The notes beneath the pieces were generated by a model. That model worked only from the letters and a program-made list of their open reading frames with translations, ran no database searches and was not told where the DNA came from. A stretch of DNA of 27,955 bases. Source: a virus. Of this stretch, positions 5,861-24,643 are shown one piece after another; the stretch's first letter is position 1; each line of letters starts with the position of its first letter. The position numbers and the translations under genes are program-made. The stretch is taken from positions 1 through 27,955 of the IMG/VR virus record IMGVR_UViG_3300028864_000080; one strand, 5' to 3'.

Positions 5861-6601
5861 TTATTTATCTGTTACTTCAACATCTTTAGGTTGAATATTA
5901 AATTCTGTTTTAAGTATATCAAGAACTATCATTTGCATCATTTCATTAGGAAATGGAAGATCTAAATCTTGATTATCTGTAGTACTATAAAAACCAATAA
6001 CTTCTTCAGGATTTTCCCAAAGACCTTCAACTTCTATACGAGTAATAGGATTCCTAACAACAGTATCATGAATAAGAACATTTTGACGAACATTAATATA
6101 ATTATCTTTATATTGATATAATCTAGAACTCCTGGTAGGAGAAGAGTGAGTAGAGATTCGGTAACTAATTTCACTAGAATAAGTAAATGTAATAGCCGTT
6201 CCTATAATACTAACTTTAGTAAAAGGAGCATCATTTTTAATATTCATTGGAGTAGGAATCTTGCTCTTAGTTTTATATTCAGTATAAACTTTATATCTAG
6301 GATTCTTTATATGATTAGGATCAGCATCATCTGTAATACTTCTACTCCAAACACCATCTATAGTATGTCCCCATATATTATAAAATTCATTTATTATAGC
6401 AGTTTCTTCTACAGGAATAGTATCCATTTCAAGACTTGCTTTATAGTTATTAGAAATACCATTTCTATCTATACTTTGTATAATATATTTAGCATAATAA
6501 TCTTTGATTAAATCTTTAGCCAGTTCTTTAACTGTTTGATTATTAGGCTGCCCTATTGCGTAAGCTATTCTACTAGCATAATGATTTAAACTTTTACTCA
6601 T
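5861..6601 (-). CDS. Neck/tail ring protein carrying repeat copy A in its coding region
   Basis: A 246-residue protein starting MSKSLNHYASRIAYAIGQ. Features include an early helix (KELAKDLIKDYYAKYII), a central beta-rich region and a C-terminal part with NPITRIEVEGLWENPEEVIGF, then DLDLPFPNEMMQMIVLDILKTEFN. The last phrase (acidic, 'PFP', long amphipathic helix) is typical of crAss-like neck-ring proteins, so it is probably part of the ring stack below the portal. Its ATG overlaps the stop of the holin-like gene as ATGA. Residues around 147-157 (RISTHSSPTR) are encoded by an unusually GC-rich stretch with codons that are rare here (CGA, ATC, CAC, ACC, AGG). That stretch is one copy of the repeated element described separately. 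The structural role is likely; the exact ring is not known. Confidence 0.6.
   Translation of the reverse strand: MSKSLNHYASRIAYAIGQPNNQTVKELAKDLIKDYYAKYIIQSIDRNGISNNYKASLEMDTIPVEETAIINEFYNIWGHTIDGVWSRSITDDADPNHIKNPRYKVYTEYKTKSKIPTPMNIKNDAPFTKVSIIGTAITFTYSSEISYRISTHSSPTRSSRLYQYKDNYINVRQNVLIHDTVVRNPITRIEVEGLWENPEEVIGFYSTTDNQDLDLPFPNEMMQMIVLDILKTEFNIQPKDVEVTDK
6129..6163 (-). repeat. Repeat copy A: 33-nt GC-rich element with small hairpin, inside a neck-protein gene
   Basis: The element 6131-6163 matches 24611-24643 at 27 of 33 positions in the same orientation. The hairpin is CTCCT (6129-6133) / AGGAG (6137-6141) with loop GGT on the plus strand, which reads ACC on the sense strand of the genes. 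Conserved blocks are CCTGGTAGG at one end and AGAGATTCGGT at the other. It stands out from its surroundings by composition and rare codons. Function unknown. Confidence 0.7.
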
Positions 6602-7014
6602 GGTTTTGGTGTTATAGTTTTAGTAGTTGTATCAACAGTATTAGTCTTTTTATCTACTACAATATCAGCATTAGAAATAGTTACTGTATCTGCAGTTTCT
6701 ACAATAGTAGTATCTTTTGTAGTAGTATAAGATATATTTAATTTGTCTAATACTTTCTTTATAATAAAATCATAAAATGCAGTAGTTAAAAGATATGTTG
6801 GTATAATCTTATCAATAGGTAATTTAACAATATAATAATAAGCTACACAAAGTAATATACCTCCAATTGCTGTAATAGCATGTTTACCAAAACTAGTAGT
6901 ATTTTTTAAAGGACTTATATCTATAATCTTAATAATAATATAACTAAGTACAGTAATACTAATCATTAAAGGAAGATCAAAACTAGCAAATAATTGTTCT
7001 ATAAATTGTTCCAT
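6598..7014 (-). CDS. Holin-like small membrane protein
   Basis: A 138-residue protein. Three hydrophobic segments are visible at about residues 13-33 (LPLMISITVLSYIIIKIIDI), 46-63 (AITAIGGILLCVAYYYIV) and 68-85 (DKIIPTYLLTTAFYDFII). A polar, threonine-rich tail follows (about 93-138, with repeated TT, DTTT and TITPKP). Size, topology and position next to a peptidoglycan-active candidate fit a phage holin, which would permeabilise the inner membrane at lysis. The long threonine-rich tail is unusual for a holin and could face the cytoplasm as a regulatory extension. The gene overlaps the downstream neck-protein start as ATGA and lies 15 nt after the DUF5675-type gene. The membrane nature is clear; holin function is inferred from context. 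Confidence 0.55.
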   Translation of the reverse strand: MEQFIEQLFASFDLPLMISITVLSYIIIKIIDISPLKNTTSFGKHAITAIGGILLCVAYYYIVKLPIDKIIPTYLLTTAFYDFIIKKVLDKLNISYTTTKDTTIVETADTVTISNADIVVDKKTNTVDTTTKTITPKP

Positions 7015-7029
7015 AATAGTAATTATTAA

Positions 7030-7467
7030 TTATTTAATTGTTATATAAATATCTTTAGATTCTTGTTCTTCTAATAAAAGATTAGTAAGTTTATTCATGT
7101 AAATAGTTCCACCAGTTACTCCACCTTTTTCAGTATTCTTACCAAGTATAATACATCCTGAACTAGAATTTTCATCATGTCCATTATGTATAAGAATACC
7201 ATCAAAACTAGGTACATTAAGTATTCTAGGAAGTAATCTTTTAAATCTAGTAGACATATTAACTATAACTTTATATCTACCAAATGGAATACAAGTTTTA
7301 TCTTGAATTTTAGATTCTCCAAGATCTGTTAAATCACCATCTTTATTCAAATCTCGATTTACATCTTCTATAGTATCACAAAAATAAACACCATCTATAT
7401 AAAATTTACCTATAGTATATGTAGGTGCATAATAAATTCTATTTAATAACAATTCTAATACTTTCAT
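7030..7467 (-). CDS. DUF5675-like protein with L,D-transpeptidase-like motif (lysis candidate)
   Basis: A 145-residue protein that I recognise as DUF5675-like. Key elements are the early strand MKVLELLLNRIYY, an acidic Asp/Asn loop at about 39-51 (DLNKDGDLTDLGE) resembling a calcium-binding EF-hand or dockerin loop, IPFGRYKVIVNMSTRF, then GILIHNG (His94, Gly96) and SSSGCI (Ser103, Gly104, Cys105). The His...Ser-x-Gly-Cys order matches the active-site signature of YkuD/L,D-transpeptidase-like folds, where Cys is the nucleophile. No signal peptide is seen, so it would reach the cell wall through a holin, and a holin-like gene follows directly. It may cut or remodel peptidoglycan at lysis, or be virion-associated. 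The family call is good; enzymatic activity is inference from the motif. Confidence 0.62.
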   Translation of the reverse strand: MKVLELLLNRIYYAPTYTIGKFYIDGVYFCDTIEDVNRDLNKDGDLTDLGESKIQDKTCIPFGRYKVIVNMSTRFKRLLPRILNVPSFDGILIHNGHDENSSSGCIILGKNTEKGGVTGGTIYMNKLTNLLLEEQESKDIYITIK

Positions 7468-7477
7468 ATTAATTAGT

Positions 7478-7744
7478 TTAAATGTTAGTTATTTCAATAT
7501 CTGTTATAGGTTTAGTATCTAAAAGTTCTATTTCTTCTAATAGGTCACTATATTTTTCTTGAACTTCAGAAGTAATAATCATTATACATAAATTATTATA
7601 TATTTCAGGAGTATTTGTAGTATAACGGGCTGTTGATTTACCTTCTGAATAACCAAATGCATTACTAATTTGATTATTTAATTCTATATACTTATCACTT
7701 GTTAGTAAAGCATATTTCATTTTATATAATATTTCTTCTTCCAT
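7478..7744 (-). CDS. Small protein of unknown function between adhesin and lysis genes
   Basis: An 88-residue acidic protein (MEEEILYKMKYALL...). It appears mostly helical, with a hydrophobic core stretch YNNLCIMIITSEV and an acidic helix YSDLLEEIELLD. No signal peptide or known motif is visible. It lies 3 nt after the FISUMP adhesin gene and 10 nt before the DUF5675-type gene, so it belongs to the same transcript. Small proteins next to receptor-binding genes can be chaperones or tail-fibre assembly factors, but nothing in the sequence proves this. Confidence 0.55.
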   Translation of the reverse strand: MEEEILYKMKYALLTSDKYIELNNQISNAFGYSEGKSTARYTTNTPEIYNNLCIMIITSEVQEKYSDLLEEIELLDTKPITDIEITNI

Positions 7745-7747
7745 AAT

Positions 7748-9214
7748 TTAGTTTTTTATTAATCTTAATGCACATCCTTGAATTGCATCAGAACTACCAT
7801 TACCTAATCCTGAATCAGCTATTCTAACATATCTTGTAGTATTTCCAATATCTGACATTCTAAACCAAGAATAAATATTAATATTTGAAAATGTACCATC
7901 TGTGTATCTTCTTCCAGTACCTATTGCACTAAATCCACTATTATTATCTGCTCCTGTATTAGGACTATTCCAATATACTAAACCTTCTTTTTTCATCTTA
8001 CCACCACTAACAATATCACCACCTAAATATGTACTTAACGCTGTATAATCCGCTTGTGCTGGTACTCTATAACCCCACAATGATGTAGGATTTGCAACGT
8101 TGTAATAATCAATATCCATCTGCAATAATTTTACAGCGAACCAGTTGTATAACTTTCCATATACAGAACCAACAGTACTATCATTGTTATAATGACACCA
8201 CATAGATGCAGCTTTTACAGCCGCATAAGTTTTTTGTTCTACTGTACCTGCTGTAGCTGCATAAGCATTATCATACAATGTTTGTGAACTTGTCCAAATG
8301 GTATTATCAGTTACATTAGCAATCAAATTGCCTTGTGGTGTACAAACCATATCACAATTACTTGTAGCCCAAACTTGACTACCAATTGTTATAGATGGAA
8401 TGTCAGGGTATAAATTTCTTAAAAATGTTGCTTCTGTAAGTACTTGTGTAGATGTTAATGCTTGTGCACGAATTATGTGAGATGAAATACTTCCAATATT
8501 ACTGCTATTTGAATCTAAAATTTTAGTTAGTTCAATGCTTGTAACTACAATTTGATTTTCTAAAAATACACCATTAATATATGTTTTTAAATTTCCTAAT
8601 CCATCAGCAACTCTTGTTACTACACAATTTTTACCTATAATTTGACCATTAATAATATTTGTTGATAAATATGAAGTACCTAAAGAATTAATAAACCTGA
8701 ATTTTGCAGTGCCATAATAAAAATTACTAAATTTTGTAGTAACTCCACTCGCATAATACATGTTACTTACATCTGAACCATTTGTATTTATGATAGTTGT
8801 TATACTCCACGCATCAGTAGTTGCAAAATTAATAACAGAATGAGGCATAAAATTATTTCCACCATTAGGATTTTTCAAACTATAATGTTCATTTGGTGCA
8901 ATATTTCCACCTACAAATGGTTGTGATGTACTTGTTGTTTGTATTGCATCATTAGTAGTTAATAGTGAATATAACTTAGTAAAATAACTATATATTCCAC
9001 TTGTCCTAATAGTACTACCTGCTTCACCCAACCAAGCAAAGTTTATAGATTTATTAATACTTTGTTGTTTAGACATTTTCATATAAGCAATAGTATTGCT
9101 ATCACTAGTGACTATACCAAGATCTGCAAGGACTCTATTTTTATAAGTTTTAAATACTAGTATTACACCTCGTATAACACTAGCAAGTACTCCACTATAA
9201 TATTGTATATTCAT
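7748..9214 (-). CDS. Adhesin/tail protein with LamG-like and FISUMP domains
   Basis: A 488-residue protein with three parts. Residues 1-110 are a structural N-terminus (probable attachment to the virion or tail). About 127-265 looks like a LamG/concanavalin-like beta-sandwich (AWSITTIINT, KFRFINSLGTSYLS, TYINGVFLENQIV, then RAQALTSTQVLTEATFLRNLY). About 275-488 is a FISUMP domain (Fibrobacter succinogenes major paralogous domain): TIGSQVWATSN, YGKLYNWFAV, WGYRVPAQADYTALSTYLGG, NNSGFSAIGTGRRY and the ending GCALRLIKN. Such domains occur on Bacteroidetes surface proteins and phage adhesins, and their C-type-lectin-like relatives can display variable residues. The likely role is recognition of surface glycans by the virion. 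It is directly downstream of a small structural gene and the SGNH receptor-binding gene. Parts of the FISUMP coding region (8040-8400) are less AT-rich than the neighbours, suggesting module exchange. The domain call is strong; the exact location on the virion is unknown. Confidence 0.75.
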   Translation of the reverse strand: MNIQYYSGVLASVIRGVILVFKTYKNRVLADLGIVTSDSNTIAYMKMSKQQSINKSINFAWLGEAGSTIRTSGIYSYFTKLYSLLTTNDAIQTTSTSQPFVGGNIAPNEHYSLKNPNGGNNFMPHSVINFATTDAWSITTIINTNGSDVSNMYYASGVTTKFSNFYYGTAKFRFINSLGTSYLSTNIINGQIIGKNCVVTRVADGLGNLKTYINGVFLENQIVVTSIELTKILDSNSSNIGSISSHIIRAQALTSTQVLTEATFLRNLYPDIPSITIGSQVWATSNCDMVCTPQGNLIANVTDNTIWTSSQTLYDNAYAATAGTVEQKTYAAVKAASMWCHYNNDSTVGSVYGKLYNWFAVKLLQMDIDYYNVANPTSLWGYRVPAQADYTALSTYLGGDIVSGGKMKKEGLVYWNSPNTGADNNSGFSAIGTGRRYTDGTFSNINIYSWFRMSDIGNTTRYVRIADSGLGNGSSDAIQGCALRLIKN

Positions 9215-9217
9215 AGG

Positions 9218-9577
9218 TTATTCTCCCCAAAATAAATTAATGGTTCCTGCACTTCTTATTTCACAATATAAAACATTAGTTATTAAAGGATTATAATCTG
9301 TAACTACTGTGCCTGCCATCCAAGTAGTTGTATAACCTGTAAAAGTAGGAACTGCTAAAGTACCCCCTGTAATAAATAATCTAAATGTTTTTTTTATAAT
9401 AGGATTAGTAATAGTAAATACACTATTAGTAATCATATTAGTAAGTTTAGTAAAATCTTCACCAATAGATAAATCTATATTAAATGCAGATAATGCAATA
9501 GTTCTAACAAGAGTACTTGATTTAGGATTATCTGCACTAGTTGTAAAAGTCATACCTCTTTGTTCTGTAGTACTCAT
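9218..9577 (-). CDS. Small structural protein of the receptor-binding cassette
   Basis: A 119-residue, Thr/Ser/Ile-rich protein with an expected all-beta fold. It has no signal peptide or charged helices and ends in INLFWGE. The stretch TFRLFITGGTLAVPTFTGYTTTWMAG reads as alternating beta strands. Between two large host-contact proteins and only 3 nt before the FISUMP adhesin gene, it could be a fibre connector, tip or trimerisation unit. I do not recognise a family. It is clearly a gene, by length and tight spacing; the role is inferred from position. Confidence 0.55.
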   Translation of the reverse strand: MSTTEQRGMTFTTSADNPKSSTLVRTIALSAFNIDLSIGEDFTKLTNMITNSVFTITNPIIKKTFRLFITGGTLAVPTFTGYTTTWMAGTVVTDYNPLITNVLYCEIRSAGTINLFWGE

Positions 9578-9601
9578 AAATTAATTATTTATATTATATA
9601 T

Positions 9602-12091
9602 TTAAAAAGAAAATAATGATTTTAAGAATGCTGCTATTTTATTAGCTATATAAGTATATCCAATTGCATTAGGATGTACCCCATCTATTCCAAAATAATA
9701 TTGATGATTATATTTATTAAATCCTGAATTACGATACATATCTAATACTGGAATATGATTATAATTAGCACGTTCTATAATAGCATTTACATATTCAATT
9801 AAATATTTTCCTAAAGTATTAGGAACTACATCTACATCATCTATTTTATTATCTTGTATAAATCTATGAGTAGGAGTAATAAATACAATTTTAATATGTG
9901 GATAAGCAGTTAATATTTTATCTATAATATAATTTATAGCTCCATTAAATGTAGTAGTATCAATTGAATCAATTGCTCCTAAAATTACATTTCCTGTAAA
10001 ATCATTAGTACCAAAAAATATAGTTAATACATTTAATTTATTAAAATTAGTAGTTGATAATTTTGTAAAAGCTAAATTATTATTATCTTCTAAAACAATT
10101 AAATTATTAATTGCATTTTGCATTGTTGTAAAATTTCCTGTATTAATAGCTTGTGCTATTTTATACATAGATAATTCATTATAATTTACATCAGGATGAG
10201 TTGCCATTCTACAACCTCCATAACCTACTTTAATAGCATTAGCACCAATTAATTCTGCTACTTGTTCAGGATATGTCCCAAATTCTGTAACTGAATCACC
10301 ACAAAACATTGTTGTTTGCTCAAAAAAAGAACCTGGTATATTAATTTTTTTAAGATCAATTTGATTAAGTAATCCAAAAGGAATAAAAGTATTAGTATAT
10401 CTTTGATTAACTGTTATCATTAAATTAGACATTGTAGTTAAATCAATACCTACATTTCTAAAACAAATTCTTACATATTTTTCACCTTCTAAAGCAGTAT
10501 AAACTAATCTATCATCAATTACATTAGGATTAATTATAGAAGATTTTGTAATAATATTTTTATCTTTATCAAAAATAGCATAATAACCACTAAACCAGTT
10601 ATCAGGTTGATTTGCTAAAGATGTATTAATTACATCTCCTGTATTTAAAGGACCAATAAAACCTGTAAATAGCGCAACTCCCGACATATATTCTAGTAGT
10701 CCGGTTGTAGAAGTAGAAGGAATATATTTACCCATTACGATAGCAGGATCTGATATATCAAATAATTGGATAGTTTGTTTATATATATTCTCTCTTTTAA
10801 TAGTTAATGTGTCGATATTTGAAGTTACTATTTTATTGGTTTGTTGATCAGGCGAATAATCATGTTTAACATTTACATGAATTTTATCAGCAAAATAAGT
10901 TAATGATACATCAATTAAATCCCAGTTTATTTTTGCTTTAAATAAAACAGATTCACCATTTTTTAATTCAACTTCTTCGATACCTGTTGCAATACCGCCC
11001 AAATTAGGGTAATATGTAGCTACAACCGTACTTAAATCAGCCTTACAAACTTGAAGTAAAGGATTATTTTTCTGAACTGTTACTAAATAAAGTTCATCTT
11101 CATTATCTATATAATCTACTTTACCAAATTGCAAAATTAATAAAGGATTTATTTTTGTTAAATCTGAATCCTGTAAGAAAAAATCTTTGGTTGCAACATT
11201 AGATAATTCTTTTGCATTACTATCTTTTATCCATTTATTATCATCATTCCACTGCGCTGTAATTTCGCCTACAAATTGTTCTTTTATCCATTCTGTTGCA
11301 CTAACTTGATAAGTAATTATTCTACCTAACATTGGTGGAGTTACTTCTTTAGCTGTAATTGGAGTATAAAAAGAACCAAACTCTAAAGGAAAATTTGTAT
11401 TTACATTATATATTGATATATCTGCTTTAGATTGTTTATCTATTCCTTCTGTTATATCTACATAAACAGTACCACTCCATCTATATTCTTTATTATTATC
11501 AAGAGTAGTGTAAATAGTATCTAATTCTCCTATAAGTGGTAAAGTAGCAAAATTAGTAGCTTCAGCTACTTGTGATAAATAACCTATAATAAAGTTAGTT
11601 GGTATTTTTCCTTCTGAATTTAAAGAAGGATAACCATTAGCAATACCTTTATCATTTTTTAAAGCTAATGCTGATAAATCTTGATCACCAGTATTAACTC
11701 CACTTTGATTAGCAAGTTTTTGTATTTCAGTATCTAAAACTAATGATTTATTTATAACTTTATCAACTTTACTATCAACAGTATAATTCCCTATAATTAT
11801 TTCATGTTCTTTTAAATCTTTATCATAAGCTCTAAGAATACCATCTTTAAAATATAAAAATAAATGTCCTGCATCAGGAGTATGAACAGGATATTTATCT
11901 TTAGGTAAATCATCAAATATAGGTACACTAGATATTAATCCATCATTACCTATTAATGTTTCAGTATAGTTATAATAAACATATATATGTCCATTATTTC
12001 TTTTATAAATATAAGTTCTACCGTTATCCTTAGGAAAAGTATTATTAGGAAGAGTACCTATATTAACATATGCAAGATCTGTAGTTGGCAT
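9602..12091 (-). CDS. Receptor-binding protein / tail fibre with C-terminal SGNH hydrolase (esterase) domain
   Basis: An 829-residue modular protein. Residues 1-100 carry short aromatic beta repeats (GRTYIYKRNNGHIYVYYNY; AGHLFLYFKDGILRAYD). About 100-250 is a linker/shaft of a type common in Bacteroidetes phage fibres (NTGDQDLSALALKNDKG, GELDTIYTTLDNNKEYRWSG). About 250-590 is a beta-rich region resembling carbohydrate-binding modules. About 594-829 is an SGNH/GDSL hydrolase with GDSVTE (Ser600), GYGG (623-626), FFGTND (Asn696) and the terminal IDGVHPN (Asp803, His806). All four SGNH blocks are therefore present and it should be an active esterase, probably removing acyl groups from capsular or surface polysaccharide during attachment. 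The middle part (about 10660-11350) has more GC-rich codons than either flank, consistent with a swapped module. The gene starts 5 nt after the GAF-like gene stop. The catalytic call is firm; the substrate is unknown. Confidence 0.82.
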   Translation of the reverse strand: MPTTDLAYVNIGTLPNNTFPKDNGRTYIYKRNNGHIYVYYNYTETLIGNDGLISSVPIFDDLPKDKYPVHTPDAGHLFLYFKDGILRAYDKDLKEHEIIIGNYTVDSKVDKVINKSLVLDTEIQKLANQSGVNTGDQDLSALALKNDKGIANGYPSLNSEGKIPTNFIIGYLSQVAEATNFATLPLIGELDTIYTTLDNNKEYRWSGTVYVDITEGIDKQSKADISIYNVNTNFPLEFGSFYTPITAKEVTPPMLGRIITYQVSATEWIKEQFVGEITAQWNDDNKWIKDSNAKELSNVATKDFFLQDSDLTKINPLLILQFGKVDYIDNEDELYLVTVQKNNPLLQVCKADLSTVVATYYPNLGGIATGIEEVELKNGESVLFKAKINWDLIDVSLTYFADKIHVNVKHDYSPDQQTNKIVTSNIDTLTIKRENIYKQTIQLFDISDPAIVMGKYIPSTSTTGLLEYMSGVALFTGFIGPLNTGDVINTSLANQPDNWFSGYYAIFDKDKNIITKSSIINPNVIDDRLVYTALEGEKYVRICFRNVGIDLTTMSNLMITVNQRYTNTFIPFGLLNQIDLKKINIPGSFFEQTTMFCGDSVTEFGTYPEQVAELIGANAIKVGYGGCRMATHPDVNYNELSMYKIAQAINTGNFTTMQNAINNLIVLEDNNNLAFTKLSTTNFNKLNVLTIFFGTNDFTGNVILGAIDSIDTTTFNGAINYIIDKILTAYPHIKIVFITPTHRFIQDNKIDDVDVVPNTLGKYLIEYVNAIIERANYNHIPVLDMYRNSGFNKYNHQYYFGIDGVHPNAIGYTYIANKIAAFLKSLFSF

Positions 12092-12096
12092 ATTTT

Positions 12097-12723
12097 CTAT
12101 TTTTTAATTATATTTTTAATACTTTTAGAAGTACTTAATTGATGTTTCCAAATATAAGATTCGTATTCTCTTTTAAAATCAAATTCTTTAAGATATTCAA
12201 GACTTATAAATCCAACAGGTTTTTCATCATCATCTTTAATTAAAAAAGAATAACTAGAATAAACCTTACGTTTAATTAAATCTTCTTTATAGTTACTATC
12301 AATCATATCTAATTCACCAATATCTTCTTTATAACATCTTCCATCAGTAAGAAGTCTATGATATAAATAATTTATATAATTAATAGTTATCATTTGATAT
12401 TTTCCAATGTATCCACCTTTAATTTTATTATCATAATCTTCAGCTACAACAGTAAATTTATCAATAGACATTCCATTTTTAAAATGATCTCCATTATGAA
12501 AATAAGCAATATAAACACCATTAGCTTTAAGATCTTCTCTTATTTGTCCACATATTTGTGTAAGTTTAATAAATAAATCACTTCTGTCAATAGGTGAAAG
12601 AATAGTTTTAGAAAGTTGTTTTTTAATCCAATATTCTCTAAACCAAATAGTTGTGAGAGTAAAAAGATTAGTTATAATAAGTAAACTTATATCTTTTAAA
12701 ATTATGTTATTCATTACATCCAT
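12097..12723 (-). CDS. Membrane-anchored GAF-like protein
   Basis: A 208-residue protein. An N-terminal hydrophobic helix at about residues 9-28 (LKDISLLIITNLFTLTTIWF) is followed by basic residues (REYWIKKQ), suggesting a membrane anchor with the rest in the cytoplasm. The remainder resembles a GAF-type sensor fold: GVYIAYFHNGDHFKNGMSID, a central helical part (GKYQMITINYINYLYHRLL), then VYSSYSFLIKDDDEKPVGFISLEYL. Phrases like 'AYFHNG.HF.NGMS' recur in tailed phages, but I know no demonstrated function. It is the first gene after the terminator at 12778-12813, so it starts a new transcript carrying the receptor-binding and lysis genes. Possible roles are lysis timing, superinfection control or sensing of host state. 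The domain call is moderate and the function unknown. Confidence 0.58.
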   Translation of the reverse strand: MDVMNNIILKDISLLIITNLFTLTTIWFREYWIKKQLSKTILSPIDRSDLFIKLTQICGQIREDLKANGVYIAYFHNGDHFKNGMSIDKFTVVAEDYDNKIKGGYIGKYQMITINYINYLYHRLLTDGRCYKEDIGELDMIDSNYKEDLIKRKVYSSYSFLIKDDDEKPVGFISLEYLKEFDFKREYESYIWKHQLSTSKSIKNIIKK

Positions 12724-12770
12724 AATTAAAAAGTATATTATATTATTTAAATTAAAAGTGTATATTTAAT

Positions 12771-12797
12771 AAAACATAAAAAGTATCTAGTATATTT
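12771..12797 (-). promoter_or_regulatory. Weak candidate promoter overlapping the terminator
   Basis: On the minus strand GTTG (-33-like, from the loop of the terminator hairpin) is followed after 19 nt by TATGTTTT, one base from the Bacteroidetes -7 box TAnnTTTG. The layout and spacing are the same as the better candidate at 27471-27501. It would start transcription about 40 nt upstream of the GAF-like gene (start 12723), the first gene after the terminator. Match quality is modest and AT-rich DNA gives chance hits. Confidence 0.25.
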
Positions 12798-12813
12798 CAA
12801 CTAGATACTTTTT
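12778..12813. terminator. Strong (possibly bidirectional) terminator closing the head module
   Basis: A perfect 14-bp inverted repeat (AAAAAGTATCTAGT at 12778-12791, ACTAGATACTTTTT at 12800-12813) has an 8-nt loop. On the minus strand the stem ends in a run of T and is followed by TTTTATGTTTTATT. It starts 10 nt after the stop of the last head-module gene (12823). This is the clearest intrinsic terminator in the window and divides the head genes from the receptor-binding/lysis genes. The A/T-tract symmetry would let it work in both directions. Confidence 0.85.
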
Positions 12814-12822
12814 AATTATATA

Positions 12823-13746
12823 TTATACAACTACTACAGCTGCACCATTAGAATTTTTAAGAAAAGTAAGATATTTAACAATAACATCATATACGGCTGT
12901 TTGTGCTGTATGAGGAACATAAATATGTAATGTTTTATCAAAACCAGCAGCATTAGGAAGCAATGGACGTTGAGCAACTGCTCTAGTACTTATAGTTATA
13001 ATATCATATACAGCAGCAGGATCAGCAATAAAATTTGAATCCGCATATGCACCTTCAAATTTATCAAGTGTATTATTATATCCACTATTAGTTGCTAATT
13101 CTTTTTCAAATAGAACTGCTTCAGCACCTGTATTAATATATGATTCGCCATTTACTTTAGGAAAAAGAAATGAACGTAAATCACCAGTAAGTTGAATAAA
13201 CCAATTATTATCATTCAAAGTATATACAGAACTAGTGCCTGCTGTATGAACTACACTTTTAATAGGCAACTTCATATCAGTAGTAGAAATTAAAGTAAGC
13301 ATTGCAGCTTTAAATGCAGCTACTACATCAGTTGCTAAAACTACACCCGCAGTACCAATAACTTCTACATTAAGAATTTTAGTAGTATTCCAAACATTCT
13401 TGTTAGTATCAAGTTTTTTTACAACAATACCACCTTCAAATTGCATTCCAAAAGAATCAGTACGTACATTACCTGTAGGATATATAATACTTTGAGTAGG
13501 AACTATATCAGCAGTATAACCACTTAGTTGTGAATGAAAATTAAAGTTATTAGGATTAATAGTAAATGTTTTTACAGATCCATTACCTAAAGAATTAACT
13601 AATTGAAATAATCCATTAGGATTACTATTAGCTGGACTAGTAATAAAATTACTAGGATTCCCTGCAGCATCTTTAAGTCCAATCGCTCCTTTTGCTGTAG
13701 GATTACCATCAGCAACAAGAGTATTAGCAATCATCATTGTTCTCAT
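12823..13746 (-). CDS. Probable capsid-associated structural protein
   Basis: A 307-residue protein rich in Ala, Val, Thr and Asn, with composition and codon use closer to the MCP gene than to the tail genes. It starts MRTMMIANTLVADGNPTAKGAIGLKDAAGN. Most of the chain appears as beta strands (KTFTINPNNFNFHSQ, FGMQFEGGIVVKKLD, ILNVEVIGTAGVVLA). It ends in an Ile/Val-rich tail (YDVIVKYLTFLKNSNGAAVVVV). No enzyme motif is visible. It is the last gene of the head module, 10 nt before the strong terminator and 19 nt after the gene at 13766. A decoration/auxiliary capsid protein, head fibre or other abundant virion protein is plausible. I do not recognise a named family. Confidence 0.6.
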   Translation of the reverse strand: MRTMMIANTLVADGNPTAKGAIGLKDAAGNPSNFITSPANSNPNGLFQLVNSLGNGSVKTFTINPNNFNFHSQLSGYTADIVPTQSIIYPTGNVRTDSFGMQFEGGIVVKKLDTNKNVWNTTKILNVEVIGTAGVVLATDVVAAFKAAMLTLISTTDMKLPIKSVVHTAGTSSVYTLNDNNWFIQLTGDLRSFLFPKVNGESYINTGAEAVLFEKELATNSGYNNTLDKFEGAYADSNFIADPAAVYDIITISTRAVAQRPLLPNAAGFDKTLHIYVPHTAQTAVYDVIVKYLTFLKNSNGAAVVVV

Positions 13747-13765
13747 AAATATTTATTTTATTTGT

Positions 13766-14863: not shown

Positions 14864-14867
14864 TTTA

Positions 14868-15860: not shown

Positions 15861-15905
15861 TTCAGCAACATTTAGTTTATTAGTACTTTAAATAGTTGAT
15901 TTATA

Positions 15906-17399: not shown

Positions 17400-17424
17400 T
17401 GTTGTAAGTTTTTAATTGTTATAA

Positions 17425-17446
17425 AAAGTAATAATATTATTACTTT
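17425..17446. promoter_or_regulatory. 22-bp perfect palindrome in the MCP leader
   Basis: AAAGTAATAAT / ATTATTACTTT forms a perfect 22-bp palindrome between the scaffold-like gene stop (17445, overlapping it by 2 nt) and the MCP start at 17399. In RNA it would be a short AT hairpin, 26 nt upstream of the MCP ATG. It may protect the abundant MCP mRNA 5' end, mark an mRNA processing point, or be chance. Confidence 0.3.
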
Positions 17447-18773
17447 ATTTGATTATAATTTGAGCAGTACCTTTACGAACTTGCTCTTCTATATTAGTTG
17501 CAGGTTTAGATGAAACAGGTTTACCATTAGTCATTTTAATAATAGACTTAGCATTTTTAAGACGTATAACATTAGTAAGAGTTTGTTCTAATGAAGAAAT
17601 ATCTCCACCAGTAATATTCTTAATACCTTGAATAAGAAATTGATTAGTATCAGCTAATCTATTATCTTCATCAATTTGTGCTTGTGTCTTATAACCGTTA
17701 TTTGTTTCTATATCATTATAGAAGTATGCAAATAAATCTTGTCGTGTAACACGAGTAGGTTTACCATTAACCTCTACTTTTAAACCTTCTTTAGGAAGTA
17801 ATAGATTTCCTATTTGACCAGTTTTAATAATTTTATCATATAAAGAATCTTTAACACCTAAATCAATAAGTTGTCCTTTATTATCAACAGCAGCACCATA
17901 ATAATTATTTATAACTTGTTGTTGTTGACGTTGAGATTCTTTTTGAATAAGTAATGTTTCTTTATCTTTTATAGCTTTATTAGTCTTAAGTTCTTCTAAA
18001 GCCTCAAGAGCATCAACTCTTAAAGTTTCATCATTCTCAGAAAGTTTAATAAGTCTATCAATAGTTTTAGAATCATTACCAATTGCTTCATAATGATCTC
18101 TAAGAATTGTTTTTAAAACATCAGGAGTAGTTGTTTCATTAATAGTAATTGAATTATAATCTGTCTGTTTAACATAACCTTCTAAACTACCATGTTTAGA
18201 TTTATATGAATACATTTCTGCTAAGTCAGGATTATCACCAAATAAACTATCAATAGCCTCAGTTTGTCCTTGTTGATAAAATTTGTTTTTTACGTAAACT
18301 TCTCTTTCAGCTAAACCTTCAACACCATCTTTAAATAAAACTGGTTGACCGGCGTCATCTAAAAGATCAATTCCCGATACTTGTGAAATTAGTTGATGTA
18401 TATCATCAACAATAGGAGTTTTATCATCTTCAGTTGAACTAGTAGCTATCTGTTCAGCTGTATAAACAATGACTCCATCTTTAGTGGCATTACCATCAAC
18501 ATCAAGAATATAATCAGAAATACCATTACCATCTTCAATTTGAACTACAGTTCCACTAGTGCCATTAGAAGGAGTTGGTTCAGGAGTTTGATTAGGAGTT
18601 GGTATATTTTCTGGAGCAGGAGGAGTTTCAATAGGATTTATAATAGGTATTGTAGGTTTAACGCCTTCAGTTTTAATTGGAGTTAAACCTTCTATTATTA
18701 TATCACTACCACCATTACCATTATCAGGATTAGCTTCTTCACATTTAGGATTATTAAAATAATTGAATTTCAT
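17445..18773 (-). CDS. Scaffold-like protein between portal and MCP
   Basis: A 442-residue acidic protein. The first 75 residues are disordered and Pro/Gly/Asn-rich (GNGGSDIIIEGLTPIKTEG; IETPPAPENIPTPNQTPEPT). The middle has acidic helices (DDIHQLISQVSGIDLLDD; AEREVYVKNKFYQQGQTEA; LIKLSENDETLRVDALEALE), and a coiled-coil-like stretch lies at about 270-300 (KDKETLLIQKESQRQQQQV). A basic C-terminus follows (KSIIKMTNGK; EEQVRKGTAQIIIK). A large helical, acidic protein with disordered N-terminus and basic C-terminus directly between portal and MCP is the usual position and style of a phage scaffolding protein, whose C-terminus binds the capsid. No protease motif is seen, so the scaffold, if that is what it is, may leave intact or remain inside the virion. 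Position and architecture support the call; no family-level match is claimed. Confidence 0.55.
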   Translation of the reverse strand: MKFNYFNNPKCEEANPDNGNGGSDIIIEGLTPIKTEGVKPTIPIINPIETPPAPENIPTPNQTPEPTPSNGTSGTVVQIEDGNGISDYILDVDGNATKDGVIVYTAEQIATSSTEDDKTPIVDDIHQLISQVSGIDLLDDAGQPVLFKDGVEGLAEREVYVKNKFYQQGQTEAIDSLFGDNPDLAEMYSYKSKHGSLEGYVKQTDYNSITINETTTPDVLKTILRDHYEAIGNDSKTIDRLIKLSENDETLRVDALEALEELKTNKAIKDKETLLIQKESQRQQQQVINNYYGAAVDNKGQLIDLGVKDSLYDKIIKTGQIGNLLLPKEGLKVEVNGKPTRVTRQDLFAYFYNDIETNNGYKTQAQIDEDNRLADTNQFLIQGIKNITGGDISSLEQTLTNVIRLKNAKSIIKMTNGKPVSSKPATNIEEQVRKGTAQIIIK

Positions 18774-18822
18774 AACATTTTACTTTAGTATAAGTTTATA
18801 ATGTAAAAATAGTTATAGTTTT

Positions 18823-18847
18823 ATACATATACAATTATTATATGTAT
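18823..18847. other. AT hairpin in the portal-scaffold gap
   Basis: A 9-bp perfect stem (ATACATATA at 18823-18831, TATATGTAT at 18839-18847) with a 7-nt loop lies in the 85-nt gap after the portal gene. It is followed on the sense strand by AAAACTATAAC, without a T tract, so termination is unlikely. It could be an mRNA processing or stability element. Confidence 0.25.
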
Positions 18848-18858
18848 GTATTTAAGTA

Positions 18859-21264
18859 TTACTTATTACTTGATGGTTTCTTCTGTGCAAGATTATCTGC
18901 ATGTTTCTTTTTCTCAAATTCAAATTTAGCACGAGCTAAAGAAAGAACTTCTTGTTGTTGTTGATTCCTATTAATAGCTTCACCATAAGTTTCATTTTCA
19001 TCAATATAACCATTACCATTAGTATCAACTTTTAAACGTTGTTCCCAAACAAGTAATAGACCTTCTTGTTTAATAAGTTCTAATTCTTTTTTACCGTCAT
19101 TTTCTAATTGAATTTTTTGAATTTCAAAATCTCTAGTATCTTTAATACCTTGTTGTTTCATTGCTTCAATTTGTTGAGCAGATTGTTGTTTAGAAAGTTC
19201 CATTTGTTGTTCATAAACTTTCTTAGCTTTAGCAGCATCTTCAACTTTAGATTTAAGTACTTGAAGATTATCATTCATAATAGCTTCTGTAGCTAATTCA
19301 ACATCTCCATTTTGAGAAGCACTAAAAGCTACATCTTTCATAGCTTTAAGTTTTTCATCAAGCAATCTACTATTACCAACATTAATACCAATGTTAAGTG
19401 CAAAATGTTCTAAAGGATCAACTTCAATATATTTACTTTCATTAGTTGATTCATCTACATAACTACCTTGCTTACCATTAGCCCAAGCTATTTTACTATA
19501 ATCATAATTAGCTAGATAATCACTACTACGAAATAGATTAAACATTTCAAGTGACCAATTACCACTAATAGAAGATTGAGCAAGACTTTGTTCAGTAACA
19601 GACTTTCCTTGATAAGCTGCCTGATTCCCCATTCTGCTGGGTGTCATATTTGCCACTTCCCAGGCATCTAGTTTGAGTTTATCTAATAAGCCGGACAATG
19701 TATTAATATAATTGTACGTTGCCGTAGTAGCCACTTCCTTCATTGCTTGCAAGGCATTCACATTAGTAGTTGCATCATTAATAACTAAAGTACTTTCAGC
19801 ATTCATATTAGCAAGACGTTCCTCTGTAGACATTTCAGGATCATCACTAAGAGCACTTTGAGGAATAATTAAAATAGATTTCCATTTATTAATAGCACGT
19901 TCTATTTGATAATGATATATTCTAGCAAGAGCAATATATGGAACCATCCTAAAAGGAATAGGTTTAGGACTACTATCAGCATGAATATAACTCATGCCAT
20001 TATAAGGAGATTTACAAACATTTAAATTAGTAAAATTTTCTCTTTGAATATCAATAGGTCTAACTTTAGTATAAACACTTTCAAAATTATTAGAACCTTG
20101 AGAATAACCAATAATTTCACCTTCATATAATTGTTGTAACCAATCTACTTTAATACTAATATCTCCATTAGTAAGATCTAATTCATAATTTTCATCTACT
20201 ATAGTTTCTTGTATTTCACCAACTATATTTTGATAAGTTAGATATCCAACTTTAACTTCAGTTTTAAAAACATAATGTGCAATCTTAACATCATTAGTAT
20301 TTCCAAAACAACTATTATGAGTGATCATATCATTCATCATACTACTTTTAGTAATATAATCATCTTCTGTCATTCCTTGTTCAAGTAATCTACTTTTAAG
20401 TAAATTAGTAGTACCAGTTTCAACTGTGCGTTTCTCAGTAAAAGTTTTTAAATAAGCAATATCTGTAGGTTTTAAAAGTTCTGAATAAATATCTAATACT
20501 TGATATAAAGTTCTATTAAATATTCTAACTCCATATTCATCATCTTCAACATAATGATTACCACTAGGTACTCTATAATATTCAAGAGGAGAAACTATTT
20601 CAAATATAACATTTTCTTTATGTACTTTTCTATAAGTATAACATTCTTCTGTAGCCCACCAATAATAATATAATTGATTATATTTAAGTTTAGCATCAAT
20701 AACATTATTAAGAAGATCTAATCTACCTTGAGCATCTTCCGTACGTCTATCATTCCAAGTGTCAATATGATCTTTAAGTAATTGATCTAAATCAGGAGTT
20801 TCTTTAGATTGTTGTCCAGTTTCAATTGTTTTATTAAGTTCATTAATAATCATTTGTTGCATTACAGCAATTAATTTATCTCCATATTCTTTATTTCTAA
20901 AAAATATACTATTGGGATCATCAGTATAAACTTGATAATTATTATATGATGAAACAAATTCTCCAAGATATTTATCTTTAATAGGTTGTAACCAATCTAT
21001 CTCTCTAAGATCATCAAGTATAGATTCTTTAGTACTATCCTCTTTAAGACCATATGTCTTAAGAACATATTCATACATTTTCTTATCTATATAACCATTA
21101 GCCATATTTAAAAAATCAGCAGTACGAGTTTTATCATTACAAGATATAGCTAGTTGTACTACATAATCTGCCATAGATTTTGTCCATTTAGCAGATTGTT
21201 TAGTTTTAAAAGAAACTCTTTGATCAGGTAGAACATTGTTTAAATCAGTATTAAATCCTGCCAT
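18859..21264 (-). CDS. Portal protein
   Basis: An 801-residue protein directly after TerL (1-nt gap), the standard position for the portal. It has a helical N-terminus (QSAKWTKSMADYVVQLAIS), a large mixed core with aromatic phrases (YNQLYYYWWATEECYTYRKV; GVRIFNRTLYQVLDIYSELL), and RMVPYIALARIYHYQIERAINKWKSIL, which looks like part of the stem/wing helices. A long C-terminal coiled coil spans about residues 640-740 and 760-795. Portals of this type form the 12-mer DNA gate and carry a C-terminal helical barrel. Two oddities: the C-terminal part contains a perfect 12-residue EF-hand loop (DTNGNGYIDENE, 747-758), suggesting bound calcium. Residues about 498-551 are encoded by a clearly more GC-rich patch (19610-19770, with CCC, AGC, GGG, CTC, GTG codons). 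The frame is intact through the patch. The portal call is strong by context and architecture. Confidence 0.82.
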   Translation of the reverse strand: MAGFNTDLNNVLPDQRVSFKTKQSAKWTKSMADYVVQLAISCNDKTRTADFLNMANGYIDKKMYEYVLKTYGLKEDSTKESILDDLREIDWLQPIKDKYLGEFVSSYNNYQVYTDDPNSIFFRNKEYGDKLIAVMQQMIINELNKTIETGQQSKETPDLDQLLKDHIDTWNDRRTEDAQGRLDLLNNVIDAKLKYNQLYYYWWATEECYTYRKVHKENVIFEIVSPLEYYRVPSGNHYVEDDEYGVRIFNRTLYQVLDIYSELLKPTDIAYLKTFTEKRTVETGTTNLLKSRLLEQGMTEDDYITKSSMMNDMITHNSCFGNTNDVKIAHYVFKTEVKVGYLTYQNIVGEIQETIVDENYELDLTNGDISIKVDWLQQLYEGEIIGYSQGSNNFESVYTKVRPIDIQRENFTNLNVCKSPYNGMSYIHADSSPKPIPFRMVPYIALARIYHYQIERAINKWKSILIIPQSALSDDPEMSTEERLANMNAESTLVINDATTNVNALQAMKEVATTATYNYINTLSGLLDKLKLDAWEVANMTPSRMGNQAAYQGKSVTEQSLAQSSISGNWSLEMFNLFRSSDYLANYDYSKIAWANGKQGSYVDESTNESKYIEVDPLEHFALNIGINVGNSRLLDEKLKAMKDVAFSASQNGDVELATEAIMNDNLQVLKSKVEDAAKAKKVYEQQMELSKQQSAQQIEAMKQQGIKDTRDFEIQKIQLENDGKKELELIKQEGLLLVWEQRLKVDTNGNGYIDENETYGEAINRNQQQQEVLSLARAKFEFEKKKHADNLAQKKPSSNK

Positions 21265-21265
21265 A

Positions 21266-23638
21266 TTATTTACGTTTTAGTCGTTGAGCTAAAGATTGTT
21301 TATTAGTAGTATTTTTAAATAGATTTGCACGTTTAACAAATTCATCTTTTCTAAATTCATACATAGCAAGTAACATAGTAGATATTCTATCAAAATTTCC
21401 TGTATCTGTATATTTCTGAAATTCTAAACATAAAGGTAAAGAATAATTATCTTGTAACCTAATAATTATTTCTCCATCTATTGTATTACCTATGACTTCA
21501 TTATTAAAGTTTTTAATCATAGTTAAACCATTAAGTTTTTTATCTCCATCTCCAATAACCATACCATAACTAGTAGCAAGAGCTAATTGAATATTACTAC
21601 CATCATACCCCGAAGGATCTTTAAGTAGTTTATCTTGTACTTTCCATAATTTAAAATTAGGAATAGTTTCACCTCTATTAGATTCTACAAGTACTCCACA
21701 ATTCCAACGATAACATGCATCAAGCATTAATCTATCATTGTCTTTCATAGTATTTAAACGACCTGCATATTCTGCAACTAAACGTTTACCACCATAAGAC
21801 ACTCTAGTATTATCTCGCATCCATACTTGAAAAGAAAATAGAGAATGTTTATCTGTAATTTCAGTTCTAAGTTTATCTACACCATAAGGATCACATGTAA
21901 TGAAATATAAATCTTTAGGTACAACACCATTTTCATCTATAAATGGTTGATAGTATTCTCTAACACATCCATGCACATCAGTAGCATTAGTATGAGGAAC
22001 AGATAATATAAAATCATGCCAACCATCAGAGAATATATTTTGTCTAATACATTCATCTTTATCTAAAAATTTAGTTACTCCATCAATTTGTACATACCAA
22101 CCATCAGTATAAAATTTCTTAGTATGATCATTTTTTAAATCACTAACATGTATATTTAATGTAGGAGAAGCAAATAGATTTTCAGTAGTATTAATAAAAG
22201 CTTCGCTAGGTTTATTAGCACGTTGAGCACACCATATTATAAAATCATCATTAGCTTTAGATTTTTTAGCAATTGCTTTAGCTTTATTAAAACTAACTAT
22301 AGAACTAAATAATAAAGAATTACCATCCTTAATATAAGGTTCATAATTCCAAACATTAGGATGAAAGAATCCACATGTTTCATGACGTCTATCATCATCC
22401 CATATATTCTCAAAACAAATACCATTAATAGAAAGTGGATTATAAAATATAAATTCAAAATGTTCCCAATTAGAATTTTTAGTACCACCAGTACCCCATA
22501 TATTTAATCCTCCAACACTAAGTTCACCTGATTCATTATTAGACATTGTAACTTGAATGAACTCTTTAAGATGAGGACATTTACCAGCTTCATCAACATC
22601 TATGCTAATACCTTTTTTACCTACAGCAGCAGAAGTATTATGACCAATAGCATAAGATAATAATTGACTTTGATTACCAAAAGATATATTACCTTTATTA
22701 CGAAGTTTATAACCTAGTTGAATACCATCCATTGCTTCACTAAGATAACCTCTATGCCAATAAGTTTTTGTTTCAAACCAATCGAAACATTGTTTAGCCA
22801 TATATGTAAGTGCTCCTCTATCAGTAAGATAATTAAGTAAATCAGCACAAAATATAATAGTTAAGTTATCAGTAAGATTTAAAGTATTAGCTGCTTGATT
22901 ACCACGTTTATAAGAATACCCTTTACGACGAGCTTTAGCAATTGTATTATTAAAATTATTAATAGCAGTAAATTTAAAAACTTTATATGCCCAATAATCA
23001 CCATCCCAAAATCTAGGAAATCCGGCAATAGTATTAACAGCATGTAATCCTTGAGAATCTAATTCCTTACGTTCTTGTTCATTAGCAGTACGTTCTATTC
23101 TACCATAATTAAGATATGAATAATGATCTCCTGTAATATGTATTTTTTCAATAAGTTCTTCTTGTCTAGCAGGAGTAGTTTTGGGGTTAAAGTATTCGAC
23201 TATATTCTTTCTAGGAAGTCTACATTTAGCAGTCATTCCAGCTTTTCGTCTATGTGTTTCTCTGCCCCAAAACTTTTTATATTCTATACTATTCTTATCA
23301 GCTAAAGTATATTCACCATGTTTAGTATAAAAATCTGCAACTCCTGTAAACAAATATGTATTAACAAATATAAAATTTATATCCATTAAAAAACCACCAC
23401 TATTACCAACTAAAAAATCATTATCTAAATCAATATATTCTTTATTAGTTTTAGGATTAATTGTATCTTTGACTCTAGGATAATTAGATTTATCTTCAAG
23501 TATATAATTGACAAATGGTATTGAATTATCTTTATCACTAGTATCATAATTCCAATTTTCTTTAATCCATTCATTACTCTTCGTCAACGATATAAGATTC
23601 AATTTCTCTATCTCCGTCCATACTTGGTCTATATTCAT
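21266..23638 (-). CDS. terL: Terminase large subunit (ATPase-nuclease)
   Basis: A 790-residue DNA-packaging motor. The ATPase domain has a deviant Walker A, ARRKGYSYK (236-244), typical of crAss-like and related TerL proteins, and a Walker B GISIDVDEAG (343-352, with Asp349/Glu350). A coupling-type phrase, GGLNIWGTGGTK, follows at 376-387. The C-terminal RNase H-like nuclease shows FITCDPYG (Asp583), LVESNRG (Glu652) and NFDRISTMLLA (Asp750), the expected acidic metal-binding triad. Length is large for TerL but normal for this phage group. The ATG at 23638 lies 65 nt inside the upstream gene in another frame. The next in-frame Met is residue 85, within folded sequence, so the early start is preferred. 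It cuts and pumps genomic DNA into the prohead through the portal encoded next. Confidence 0.93.
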   Translation of the reverse strand: MNIDQVWTEIEKLNLISLTKSNEWIKENWNYDTSDKDNSIPFVNYILEDKSNYPRVKDTINPKTNKEYIDLDNDFLVGNSGGFLMDINFIFVNTYLFTGVADFYTKHGEYTLADKNSIEYKKFWGRETHRRKAGMTAKCRLPRKNIVEYFNPKTTPARQEELIEKIHITGDHYSYLNYGRIERTANEQERKELDSQGLHAVNTIAGFPRFWDGDYWAYKVFKFTAINNFNNTIAKARRKGYSYKRGNQAANTLNLTDNLTIIFCADLLNYLTDRGALTYMAKQCFDWFETKTYWHRGYLSEAMDGIQLGYKLRNKGNISFGNQSQLLSYAIGHNTSAAVGKKGISIDVDEAGKCPHLKEFIQVTMSNNESGELSVGGLNIWGTGGTKNSNWEHFEFIFYNPLSINGICFENIWDDDRRHETCGFFHPNVWNYEPYIKDGNSLLFSSIVSFNKAKAIAKKSKANDDFIIWCAQRANKPSEAFINTTENLFASPTLNIHVSDLKNDHTKKFYTDGWYVQIDGVTKFLDKDECIRQNIFSDGWHDFILSVPHTNATDVHGCVREYYQPFIDENGVVPKDLYFITCDPYGVDKLRTEITDKHSLFSFQVWMRDNTRVSYGGKRLVAEYAGRLNTMKDNDRLMLDACYRWNCGVLVESNRGETIPNFKLWKVQDKLLKDPSGYDGSNIQLALATSYGMVIGDGDKKLNGLTMIKNFNNEVIGNTIDGEIIIRLQDNYSLPLCLEFQKYTDTGNFDRISTMLLAMYEFRKDEFVKRANLFKNTTNKQSLAQRLKRK

Positions 23639-24194
23639 TTGAACCTCTAATTACTTGTGAGTTATTGTTCTGTTTTTCTATAAGATTTTTAAGAGTATCA
23701 ATATCACCAGGAATACTTTTAATAGTTTTCATAACTTTAGAAACCATATCTGAAACATCAATAGCATTACCATCTTTATCTTTAAACTCATCACGTTCAA
23801 GATTATTTAAAGTATCAATATAATTCTCTAAACTTCTAGTAGAAATATTCAATGCTTTAGTAGCCATACTAACTAATCTATTAATACCATCAAATTCTAA
23901 ATCTTCTTTAACAAATTTAAGAATTTCTTTATGATTTAAAGGAACATGATAATCTCTAGGAAGTTTAGTTTGACTTAAGGCATATATATGAGAATCTTTA
24001 GCATTTAATCCATTCTTAATACAATATCCCGAAGGAGAAGTTAAATAATCAATATATTTAAAGTATTCTTTAGATAGATATTTAACTGTAGAAGTATCTT
24101 GTTGATATACTTTAGCTAGTAAAGGATATTTCAATAGCTCTTGCAGATTAAGAACTAAATTATCTGTATTGTCTATATACCATATATGTATCAT
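23574..24194 (-). CDS. Candidate small terminase subunit / terminase-associated protein
   Basis: A 206-residue protein just upstream of, and overlapping, terL. The N-terminal half is mixed, with hydrophobic and aromatic residues (IHIWYIDNTDNLVLNLQELLKYPLLAKVYQQD; YFKYIDYLTSPSGYCIKNG). The second half is helical (LNHKEILKFVKEDLEFDGINRLVSMATKALN; MVSKVMKTIKSIPGDIDTLKNLIEKQNNN), suggesting oligomerisation, and the tail is acidic (DGDREIESYIVDEE). No helix-turn-helix is certain. Position immediately before terL is the usual place of a small terminase, which selects viral DNA. It starts with an ATGA overlap with the HExxH gene and ends 65 nt into terL, so the three genes are translationally linked. 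The small-terminase role is inferred from context, not from a recognised motif. Confidence 0.5.
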   Translation of the reverse strand: MIHIWYIDNTDNLVLNLQELLKYPLLAKVYQQDTSTVKYLSKEYFKYIDYLTSPSGYCIKNGLNAKDSHIYALSQTKLPRDYHVPLNHKEILKFVKEDLEFDGINRLVSMATKALNISTRSLENYIDTLNNLERDEFKDKDGNAIDVSDMVSKVMKTIKSIPGDIDTLKNLIEKQNNNSQVIRGSNEYRPSMDGDREIESYIVDEE

Positions 24195-24565
24195 ACAAGT
24201 ATTTCATTATATTGTTTAATTGCTTTCTCAACTTCACTAAATAAATATTCCATTAGATAAGCATTATTTTCATCACCAAAATTAGTTTGTCCAATATGTT
24301 CATATAAACGTTGAACTAAATGTATAAGTTCATGAACTATTAATTTACCATTAGGAACTTCTTCAAAAGCAACTATTAAAGAATATACATTAAGTTCTTT
24401 ATGTATAATTCCTCTATATACTTTAGCATCAGATTGATCCCAATTATCATCAGTCATCAATCTATCACCATCATTAATAAATTGATTAAGTGTTTCATGA
24501 ATATCTTCACCTATATGAATATATAATTCTATAGGATATATATGTTGATCTATTTTATATAACAT
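24191..24565 (-). CDS. Small HExxH putative zinc-metallopeptidase
   Basis: A 124-residue protein. The motif IVHELIHLVQ (His78, Glu79, His82) fits a zinc-binding HExxH helix, and the downstream acidic helix GDENNAYLMEYLFSEVEKA offers a third ligand (Glu99 or Glu106). It resembles the minimal zincin core of small phage and anti-repressor peptidases. There is no signal peptide, so it would act in the cell or in the virion. It is the first gene of the set HExxH - small terminase - terL and is preceded by repeat copy B, 43 nt upstream of its start. It overlaps the next gene as ATGA. A prohead or host-protein protease is possible; a non-catalytic role is not excluded. The motif is seen; activity is inferred. 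Confidence 0.6.
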   Translation of the reverse strand: MLYKIDQHIYPIELYIHIGEDIHETLNQFINDGDRLMTDDNWDQSDAKVYRGIIHKELNVYSLIVAFEEVPNGKLIVHELIHLVQRLYEHIGQTNFGDENNAYLMEYLFSEVEKAIKQYNEILV

Positions 24566-24607
24566 AATATGTTTAAATTTATTTGATCAATTCTGTCGAG
24601 TATGATA

Positions 24608-24643
24608 TTCCCTGGTAGGGAAAGGGTGATCAGAGATTCGGTT
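24608..24643 (-). repeat. Repeat copy B: 33-nt GC-rich element with small hairpin, upstream of HExxH/terminase genes
   Basis: The element 24611-24643 matches 6131-6163 at 27 of 33 positions, same orientation. The hairpin is TTCCCT (24608-24613) / AGGGAA (24617-24622) with the loop GGT, i.e. ACC on the sense strand. Relative to copy A the two outer pairs of the shared 5-bp stem change on both sides (T-A to C-G and C-G to T-A), keeping pairing. It ends at the stop of the 40-codon gene and lies 43 nt before the HExxH gene start, so it sits in that gene's leader. Confidence 0.7.

Follow-up and report, generated by a model that had tools for sequence, protein, structure and literature searches.

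Known Chi words, the hotspots of RecBCD and AddAB, are 5 to 8 bp long and are read by host enzymes. The DNA uptake sequences of Haemophilus and Neisseria are strand-specific words reported to be evenly spread on each strand, and N15 has a dispersed centromere, consisting of a few inverted-repeat sites in a phage-plasmid genome that are read by SopB. The Crassvirales, in which the element described here occurs, are among the most abundant human gut viruses. The Chi word of E. coli is an octamer present at a density of 0.2 per kb (PMC3784561), the sites of the Rembedalsseter nick motif, WACTRTGAC, are all on one strand and those of its relatives are not evenly spread (PMC11780129), and the replication mode of the Crassvirales has been reported as unknown (PMC10136315). 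The element was seen in a stretch of 27,955 nucleotides, the whole of which is called the window here (positions 1 to 27,955 of IMG/VR virus record IMGVR_UViG_3300028864_000080), a crAss-like phage fragment with 26.3% G+C. An earlier note on the window had reported two copies of a GC-rich 33-bp element in AT-rich DNA, and this held up. Copies A and B are identical at 27 of 33 positions and contain 48 to 52% G+C, and the pair has a composition-weighted score of 50.6, compared with a maximum of 37.9 among 40 dinucleotide shuffles and 37.1 for the runner-up real pair in the window. Judged by sequence, both copies belong to a putative DNA recognition site that is strand-specific and dispersed through crAss-like phage genomes, with one word per lineage. 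This repeat family points to an undescribed signal in the copying, repair, or processing of crAss-like phage DNA.

Lineage-specific words in crAss-like phages

Genome self-comparison revealed GC-rich dispersed words, specific to the lineage, in all ten Intestiviridae records examined (Table 1). A single 13-mer, with one mismatch allowed, had 13 to 32 matches in eight of the ten records, compared with 0 to 1 for reversed-pattern controls, and 0 to 1 matches each in crAss001, phi14:2, cr106, and cr10. An unbiased search for over-represented 9-mers recovered the same Intestiviridae words plus a shorter word, CTCCAGAAG, in crAss001. This 9-mer is present in 25 to 31 copies in three genomes of Kehishuvirus, the genus of crAss001, and in 0 to 7 copies in the other records checked (control, 2). 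It resembles the cr271 word minus its middle (CTCC-AGAAG, CTCCCCCGTAGAAG), a likeness that may or may not be homology. The 9-mer search gave no convincing over-represented word in phi14:2 or cr106. In cr10_1 (NC_055875), words of the TACTTTGGA and TACTCAGGA types (TACTYWGGA-like) are over-represented on both strands, with spacing that is not even.

Over twelve genomes, 8 to 37 copies were found per complete genome, on both strands, and site density in these phages is 0.09 to 0.4 per kb. Such lineage-specific words would be useful for sorting crAss-like contigs. We found no account of these sites in searches of an open-access library, and a description in a subscription journal remains possible. 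Words of the CGCT(T/C/A)CGCT type, often 5' of a site, occur only within 60 bp of one in pcrAss (BK010471; 7 of 7), crAss002 (5 of 5), and cr107 (6 of 6); they are a putative accessory element.

Spacing on each strand

The gaps between sites on a given strand are far more even than random, with a coefficient of variation of 0.25 to 0.6 on most strands compared with about 0.9; the plus strands of jaberico and cr271 are exceptions. The Fisher combined p for per-strand regularity over eight genomes was 2.6e-28, a value that overstates independence because the genomes are related. Three genomes also contain approximately 3,000 other 7-mers with a comparable copy number, none of which was equally regular. 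The strands are metered independently of each other and of genes. Same-strand pairs closer than 2 kb numbered 11 against 75 expected, while opposite-strand pairs at that distance numbered 74 against 78.6 expected. A hard-core null, in which gaps below the observed minimum are forbidden, mimics deletion between close direct repeats, and it was still rejected overall (p = 3e-11; largest gap, p = 2e-9), if not on every single strand. Purging of direct repeats by deletion is thus insufficient to produce the even spacing.

Mean spacing per strand is about 5 to 9 kb in the Intestiviridae and about 14 to 18 kb in Crevaviridae-like genomes, which are closest to the window. Copies A and B share a strand and are separated by 18,480 bp. 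In IMGVR_UViG_3300020045_001434 (G003; 90,928 bp), the five minus-strand sites are separated by gaps averaging 18.2 kb (coefficient of variation, 0.23; p = 0.006).

Copies in relatives of the window

The window shares its species with contigs L003 and L004, and its best informative relative is G003, with a terminase 59.5% identical to that of the window and a neck gene for which the best segment is 54% identical. The G003 neck gene has the element at the equivalent place, and seven other copies lie elsewhere in the genome, on both strands and both inside and between genes. These sites score 30 to 50, and a motif control with two shuffled G003 sequences gave one match, with a score of 11.5. Matches in strict pattern scans of IMG/VR were confined to the conspecific contigs and G003, and a relaxed-pattern scan of 2.9 million viral contigs returned five G003 sites and nothing beyond them. 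The expectation that copies would occupy equivalent positions in relatives was borne out for copy A and failed for copy B: the interval between the equivalent genes of G003 lacks a site, and the relative L021 lacks a position weight matrix match.

Since the G003 neck-gene site lies at the same place and further copies occur elsewhere, the element is best explained as a selected nucleic acid signal and not just as protein coding. Copy A does impose rare codons on its gene, as the earlier note had pointed out: ACC makes up 1.5% of Thr codons, ATC makes up 2.8% of Ile codons, and AGG and CGA each make up 3.8% of Arg codons. At copy A alone, third positions are kept at 7 of 11 codons inside the site versus 83 of 122 elsewhere.

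The window terminase is 50% identical to its homolog in cr127_1 (Crevaviridae), a genome in which weak matches to the window and G003 motif led to 12 sites of a separate, diverged family, ACGAATTTCGGAACACCTCTCGCCCTTGTGGCC. The ACGAATNTC start and the C-rich middle are common to this family and the window/G003 element; the CCT/AGG stem is not. One of the cr127_1 sites is directly downstream of the neck gene. We treat the words of the Intestiviridae and of the Crevaviridae as analogous families and claim no common descent for them.

Conservation and gene context of the sites

Between crAss002 and cr107, 32 of 35 sites are orthologous in position, even where the aligned flanks are only 67 to 78% identical, and in each of two comparisons between more distant Crudevirinae, three of five alignable sites are kept. 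Where a site is missing, several of the aligned sequences differ by substitutions alone (e.g., crAss002 3790 and 44331 and cr3 63976); two prototypic crAssphage cases sit in gapped alignments and are uninformative. From these substitution-type empty sites, together with a neck protein alignment that is gap-free across the element in the window, G003, and cr127_1, we infer that the sites were written over existing sequence and not inserted. A mobile or selfish miniature element, spread through the genomes and with its close direct copies purged by deletion, would account for the high similarity of copies within a genome and for the same-variant inverted pairs 180 to 200 bp apart in cr127_1. However, orthologous sequence without a site mostly differs by substitution, with no clean insertion, the neck protein aligns without a gap, and the spacing is more even than such a purge yields. 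We rejected the mobile element on the substitution-type empty sites and regard it as very improbable.

Over the twelve genomes, 104 sites are sense and 127 antisense relative to genes (p = 0.15), and 93 are intergenic; the corresponding numbers for the CTCCAGAAG copies of crAss001 are 13, 12, and 4. These counts bear on promoters, terminators, and operators, including hairpin promoters of the giant virion RNA polymerase. Intergenic sites are enriched 2- to 6-fold, both window copies read sense relative to their genes, and two G003 sites are suggestively placed for such a role, 84937 being upstream of the late operon and 16688 being 30 bp ahead of a gene. Yet antisense sites are as common as sense sites, most sites lie inside genes, and the giant polymerase has homologs in phi14:2 as well, a genome that yielded no such word. 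The translational operator that the earlier note proposed to link tail and packaging genes does not fit 8 to 37 copies per genome with many of them deep in genes, and its hairpin promoter of the N4 type is contradicted by the lack of orientation toward downstream genes and by a stem that is not conserved.

The hairpin itself exists in the window as claimed, a 5-bp stem with an ACC loop in which the outer two pairs differ on both sides between copies A and B, but its pairing is not kept in the family. The outermost pair fails in 6 of the 10 copies from the window and G003, and the cr127_1 sites are without the CCT/AGG stem. Stem covariation was matched by 39 of 500 shuffles and is not clearly above chance with ten copies, and the CCTACYAGG core is kept as sequence. 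An Rfam scan of the window gave no match. Orientation and gene-blindness led us to reject the promoter and operator readings, and transcription signals of any kind are the least probable of the explanations considered. Of the functions first suggested for the element, the recombination or packaging idea alone remains.

A possible Chi-like landmark

We tentatively favor a Chi-like landmark for a phage recombination or replication machine as the function of the site. The word on one strand would be read by a phage-encoded enzyme moving along the DNA, such as a helicase-nuclease that processes DNA ends and would switch its activity at a correctly oriented site. Every stretch of each strand would then need a site, no matter where the DNA is broken or a permuted genome ends. 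Metering of each strand that is blind to the other strand and to genes suits an enzyme reading one strand in motion, and a Chi-like site is the best fit given the density, the use of both strands, and the predicted circularly permuted ends of crAss002 (PMC10136315). Chi and the crAss-like words are both over-represented, non-palindromic, and strand-specific, and both occur on the two strands, inside and outside genes, at comparable densities. Unlike Chi, the crAss-like word is lineage-specific and very evenly spaced on each strand.

Several points weigh against a Chi-like landmark. The words are 9 to 33 bp long, carry 27 to 50 bits, and track the phage rather than the host, unlike any known Chi. 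Close inverted pairs (25 to 300 bp) are above chance in some genomes, and Chi does not predict them. The intergenic enrichment also counts here, although it is expected if coding sequence resists the word. Finally, crAss001 has its 9-mer although homologs of the candidate exonuclease, helicase, and Gam proteins discussed below were not detected in it, which leaves the argument from gene profiles weak.

Nick sites and strand-initiation sites are the main rivals of the Chi-like reading. A phage nickase, as in T5, phiKMV, tf, and Rembedalsseter, would cut one strand at each site in virion DNA; its motifs are likewise short, strand-specific, phage-group-specific words dispersed in and out of genes, conserved, and of unknown function (PMC11780129). 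The crAss-like sites are found on both strands about equally and evenly, in contrast to the one-strand or uneven nick motifs, and inverted pairs at 25 to 40 bp would risk double-strand breaks; nicking is therefore unlikely, though it deserves consideration. At initiation or primosome-loading sites, a single-stranded site would start complementary-strand synthesis, hence the metering per strand, and even spacing with independent strands would follow. Known phage primases, however, require only a few bases, and the 14- to 18-kb per-strand gaps in G003 and cr127_1 are very long for lagging-strand starts, making this explanation rather unlikely. DNA primase is nonetheless the only replication gene that every crAss-like phage is reported to carry, in the same source that gives their replication mode as unknown (PMC10136315).

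Sites for a genome-organizing or partition protein, such as an N15-like dispersed centromere or a nucleoid protein, would suit the dispersed, gene-blind distribution and would serve the phage-plasmid or pseudolysogenic life proposed for prototypic crAssphage and crAss002 (PMC11652158, PMC12118408). For such sites orientation should be irrelevant, yet spacing is metered per strand with the other strand ignored, and lytic crAss001 also carries sites. The N15 centromere shares dispersed sites with the crAss-like phages and differs in its inverted repeats, its few copies, and its SopB; among ten G003 early proteins scanned, none had a ParB-like Pfam match and no SopB-like protein was seen. We regard partitioning as improbable. 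DNA uptake sequences, as generally described, resemble the crAss-like words in being strand-specific and even, but they are bacterial import tags, and phages have no uptake process.

It is also possible, though less likely than not, that the Crassvirales use an undescribed genome-wide signal: a phage-specific, strand-metered word of 9 to 33 bp with a phage-encoded, co-diverging reader. This signal would control a strand-specific step of replication, recombination, or packaging that lies outside the roles of the dispersed sites described so far.

Candidate reader

Bacteroides cellulosilyticus is the recorded host of both Rudgehvirus jaberico and Kehishuvirus tikkala. The jaberico genome contains 27 copies of its own word and two of CTCCAGAAG, and the tikkala genome contains 25 copies of CTCCAGAAG and one of the jaberico word. 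Since the words differ between phages that share a host species, the reader is probably encoded by the phage, and a Chi site read by the host is disfavored. A PD-(D/E)XK exonuclease, a RecD/Dda-like helicase, a Gam-like protein, a DUF932 protein, and two proteins of unknown function are encoded in the five site-bearing genomes compared and were not found in crAss001, phi14:2, or cr10. The exonuclease, the helicase, and the Gam-like protein, which may bind DNA ends, are candidate partners of the site. This profile is only a lead, since crAss001 has a word of its own. A link between the sites and three genes, on the view that the Steigviridae have no sites at all, was considered and was weakened by the Kehishuvirus 9-mer. 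Profile searches of PDB with the Gam-like protein and with two conserved proteins of unknown function found no homolog. An even, strand-specific site in prototypic crAssphage would offer a direct handle on replication and predicts a phage-encoded reader. The culturable members crAss001 and crAss002 allow this to be tested and could identify a protein that processes Crassvirales DNA.

Site features and neighboring genes

The sites and the genes around the window copies are collected in Table 1.

Table 1. Element copies, neighboring genes, and site counts
Feature	Genome	Position or number of sites	Strand	Word	Remark
Copy A	Window	6131..6163	-	TACCGAATCTCTACTCACTCTTCTCCTACCAGG	Inside neck/tail ring protein 2 gene; orthologous to G003 62798-62830
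Copy B	Window	24611..24643	-	AACCGAATCTCTGATCACCCTTTCCCTACCAGG	Intergenic; unchanged in L003 and L004
Neck gene carrying copy A	Window	5861..6601	-		Matches phrog_9863 (virion structural); G003 ortholog matches Pfam CrAss_Ring_2 (tail ring protein 2)
40-codon open reading frame (ORF) 5' of copy B	Window	24642..24764	-		TAA stop overlaps first bases of copy B
124-aa ORF, phrog_1365	Window	24191..24565	-		Start is 45 bp downstream of copy B
Terminase large subunit gene	Window	21266-23638			After phrog_1365 ORF
Element site	G003	6798	-
Element site	G003	16688	+
Element site	G003	26855	+
Element site	G003	28807	-
Element site	G003	45726	+
Element site	G003	49166	-
Element site	G003	62798	-		Neck gene
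Element site	G003	84937	-
Dispersed word	Prototypic crAssphage	32 sites		AC.CCCCGTRGAGGATGGA
Dispersed word	O152	33 sites			Genus of prototypic crAssphage
Dispersed word	cr110	34 sites
Dispersed word	cr3	37 sites
Dispersed word	jaberico	29 sites		CCCCTGTARAGGA
Dispersed word	crAss002	35 sites		TTCCCCCRTAAAGGAG
Dispersed word	cr107	34 sites			Genus of crAss002
Dispersed word	cr271	18 sites		GCTCCCCCGTAGAAGA
Dispersed word	cr8	29 sites
Dispersed word	ctcc615	23 sites

An outer inverted repeat, AACGAATA/TATTCGTT, flanks G003 sites 26855 and 84937 and is absent from the other six. In cr127_1, the convergent site pairs 28677+/28869- and 42018+/42230- are about 190 to 200 bp apart, and each pair has its own sequence variant, which suggests local copying. 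A 118-bp similarity (77%) between positions 1746-1863 and 11889-12006 of that genome runs downstream from the site and is longer than at other sites. The G003 neck gene (L005:8957-10450, equal to G003 62528-64021) is enlarged by an insertion, roughly 250 aa long, that includes a Fib_succ_major domain, and in the window this domain is encoded by a separate gene (7748-9214). The 829-aa protein encoded at positions 9602-12091 of the window contains a GDSL lipase/acylhydrolase domain and is probably an enzyme associated with the tail.

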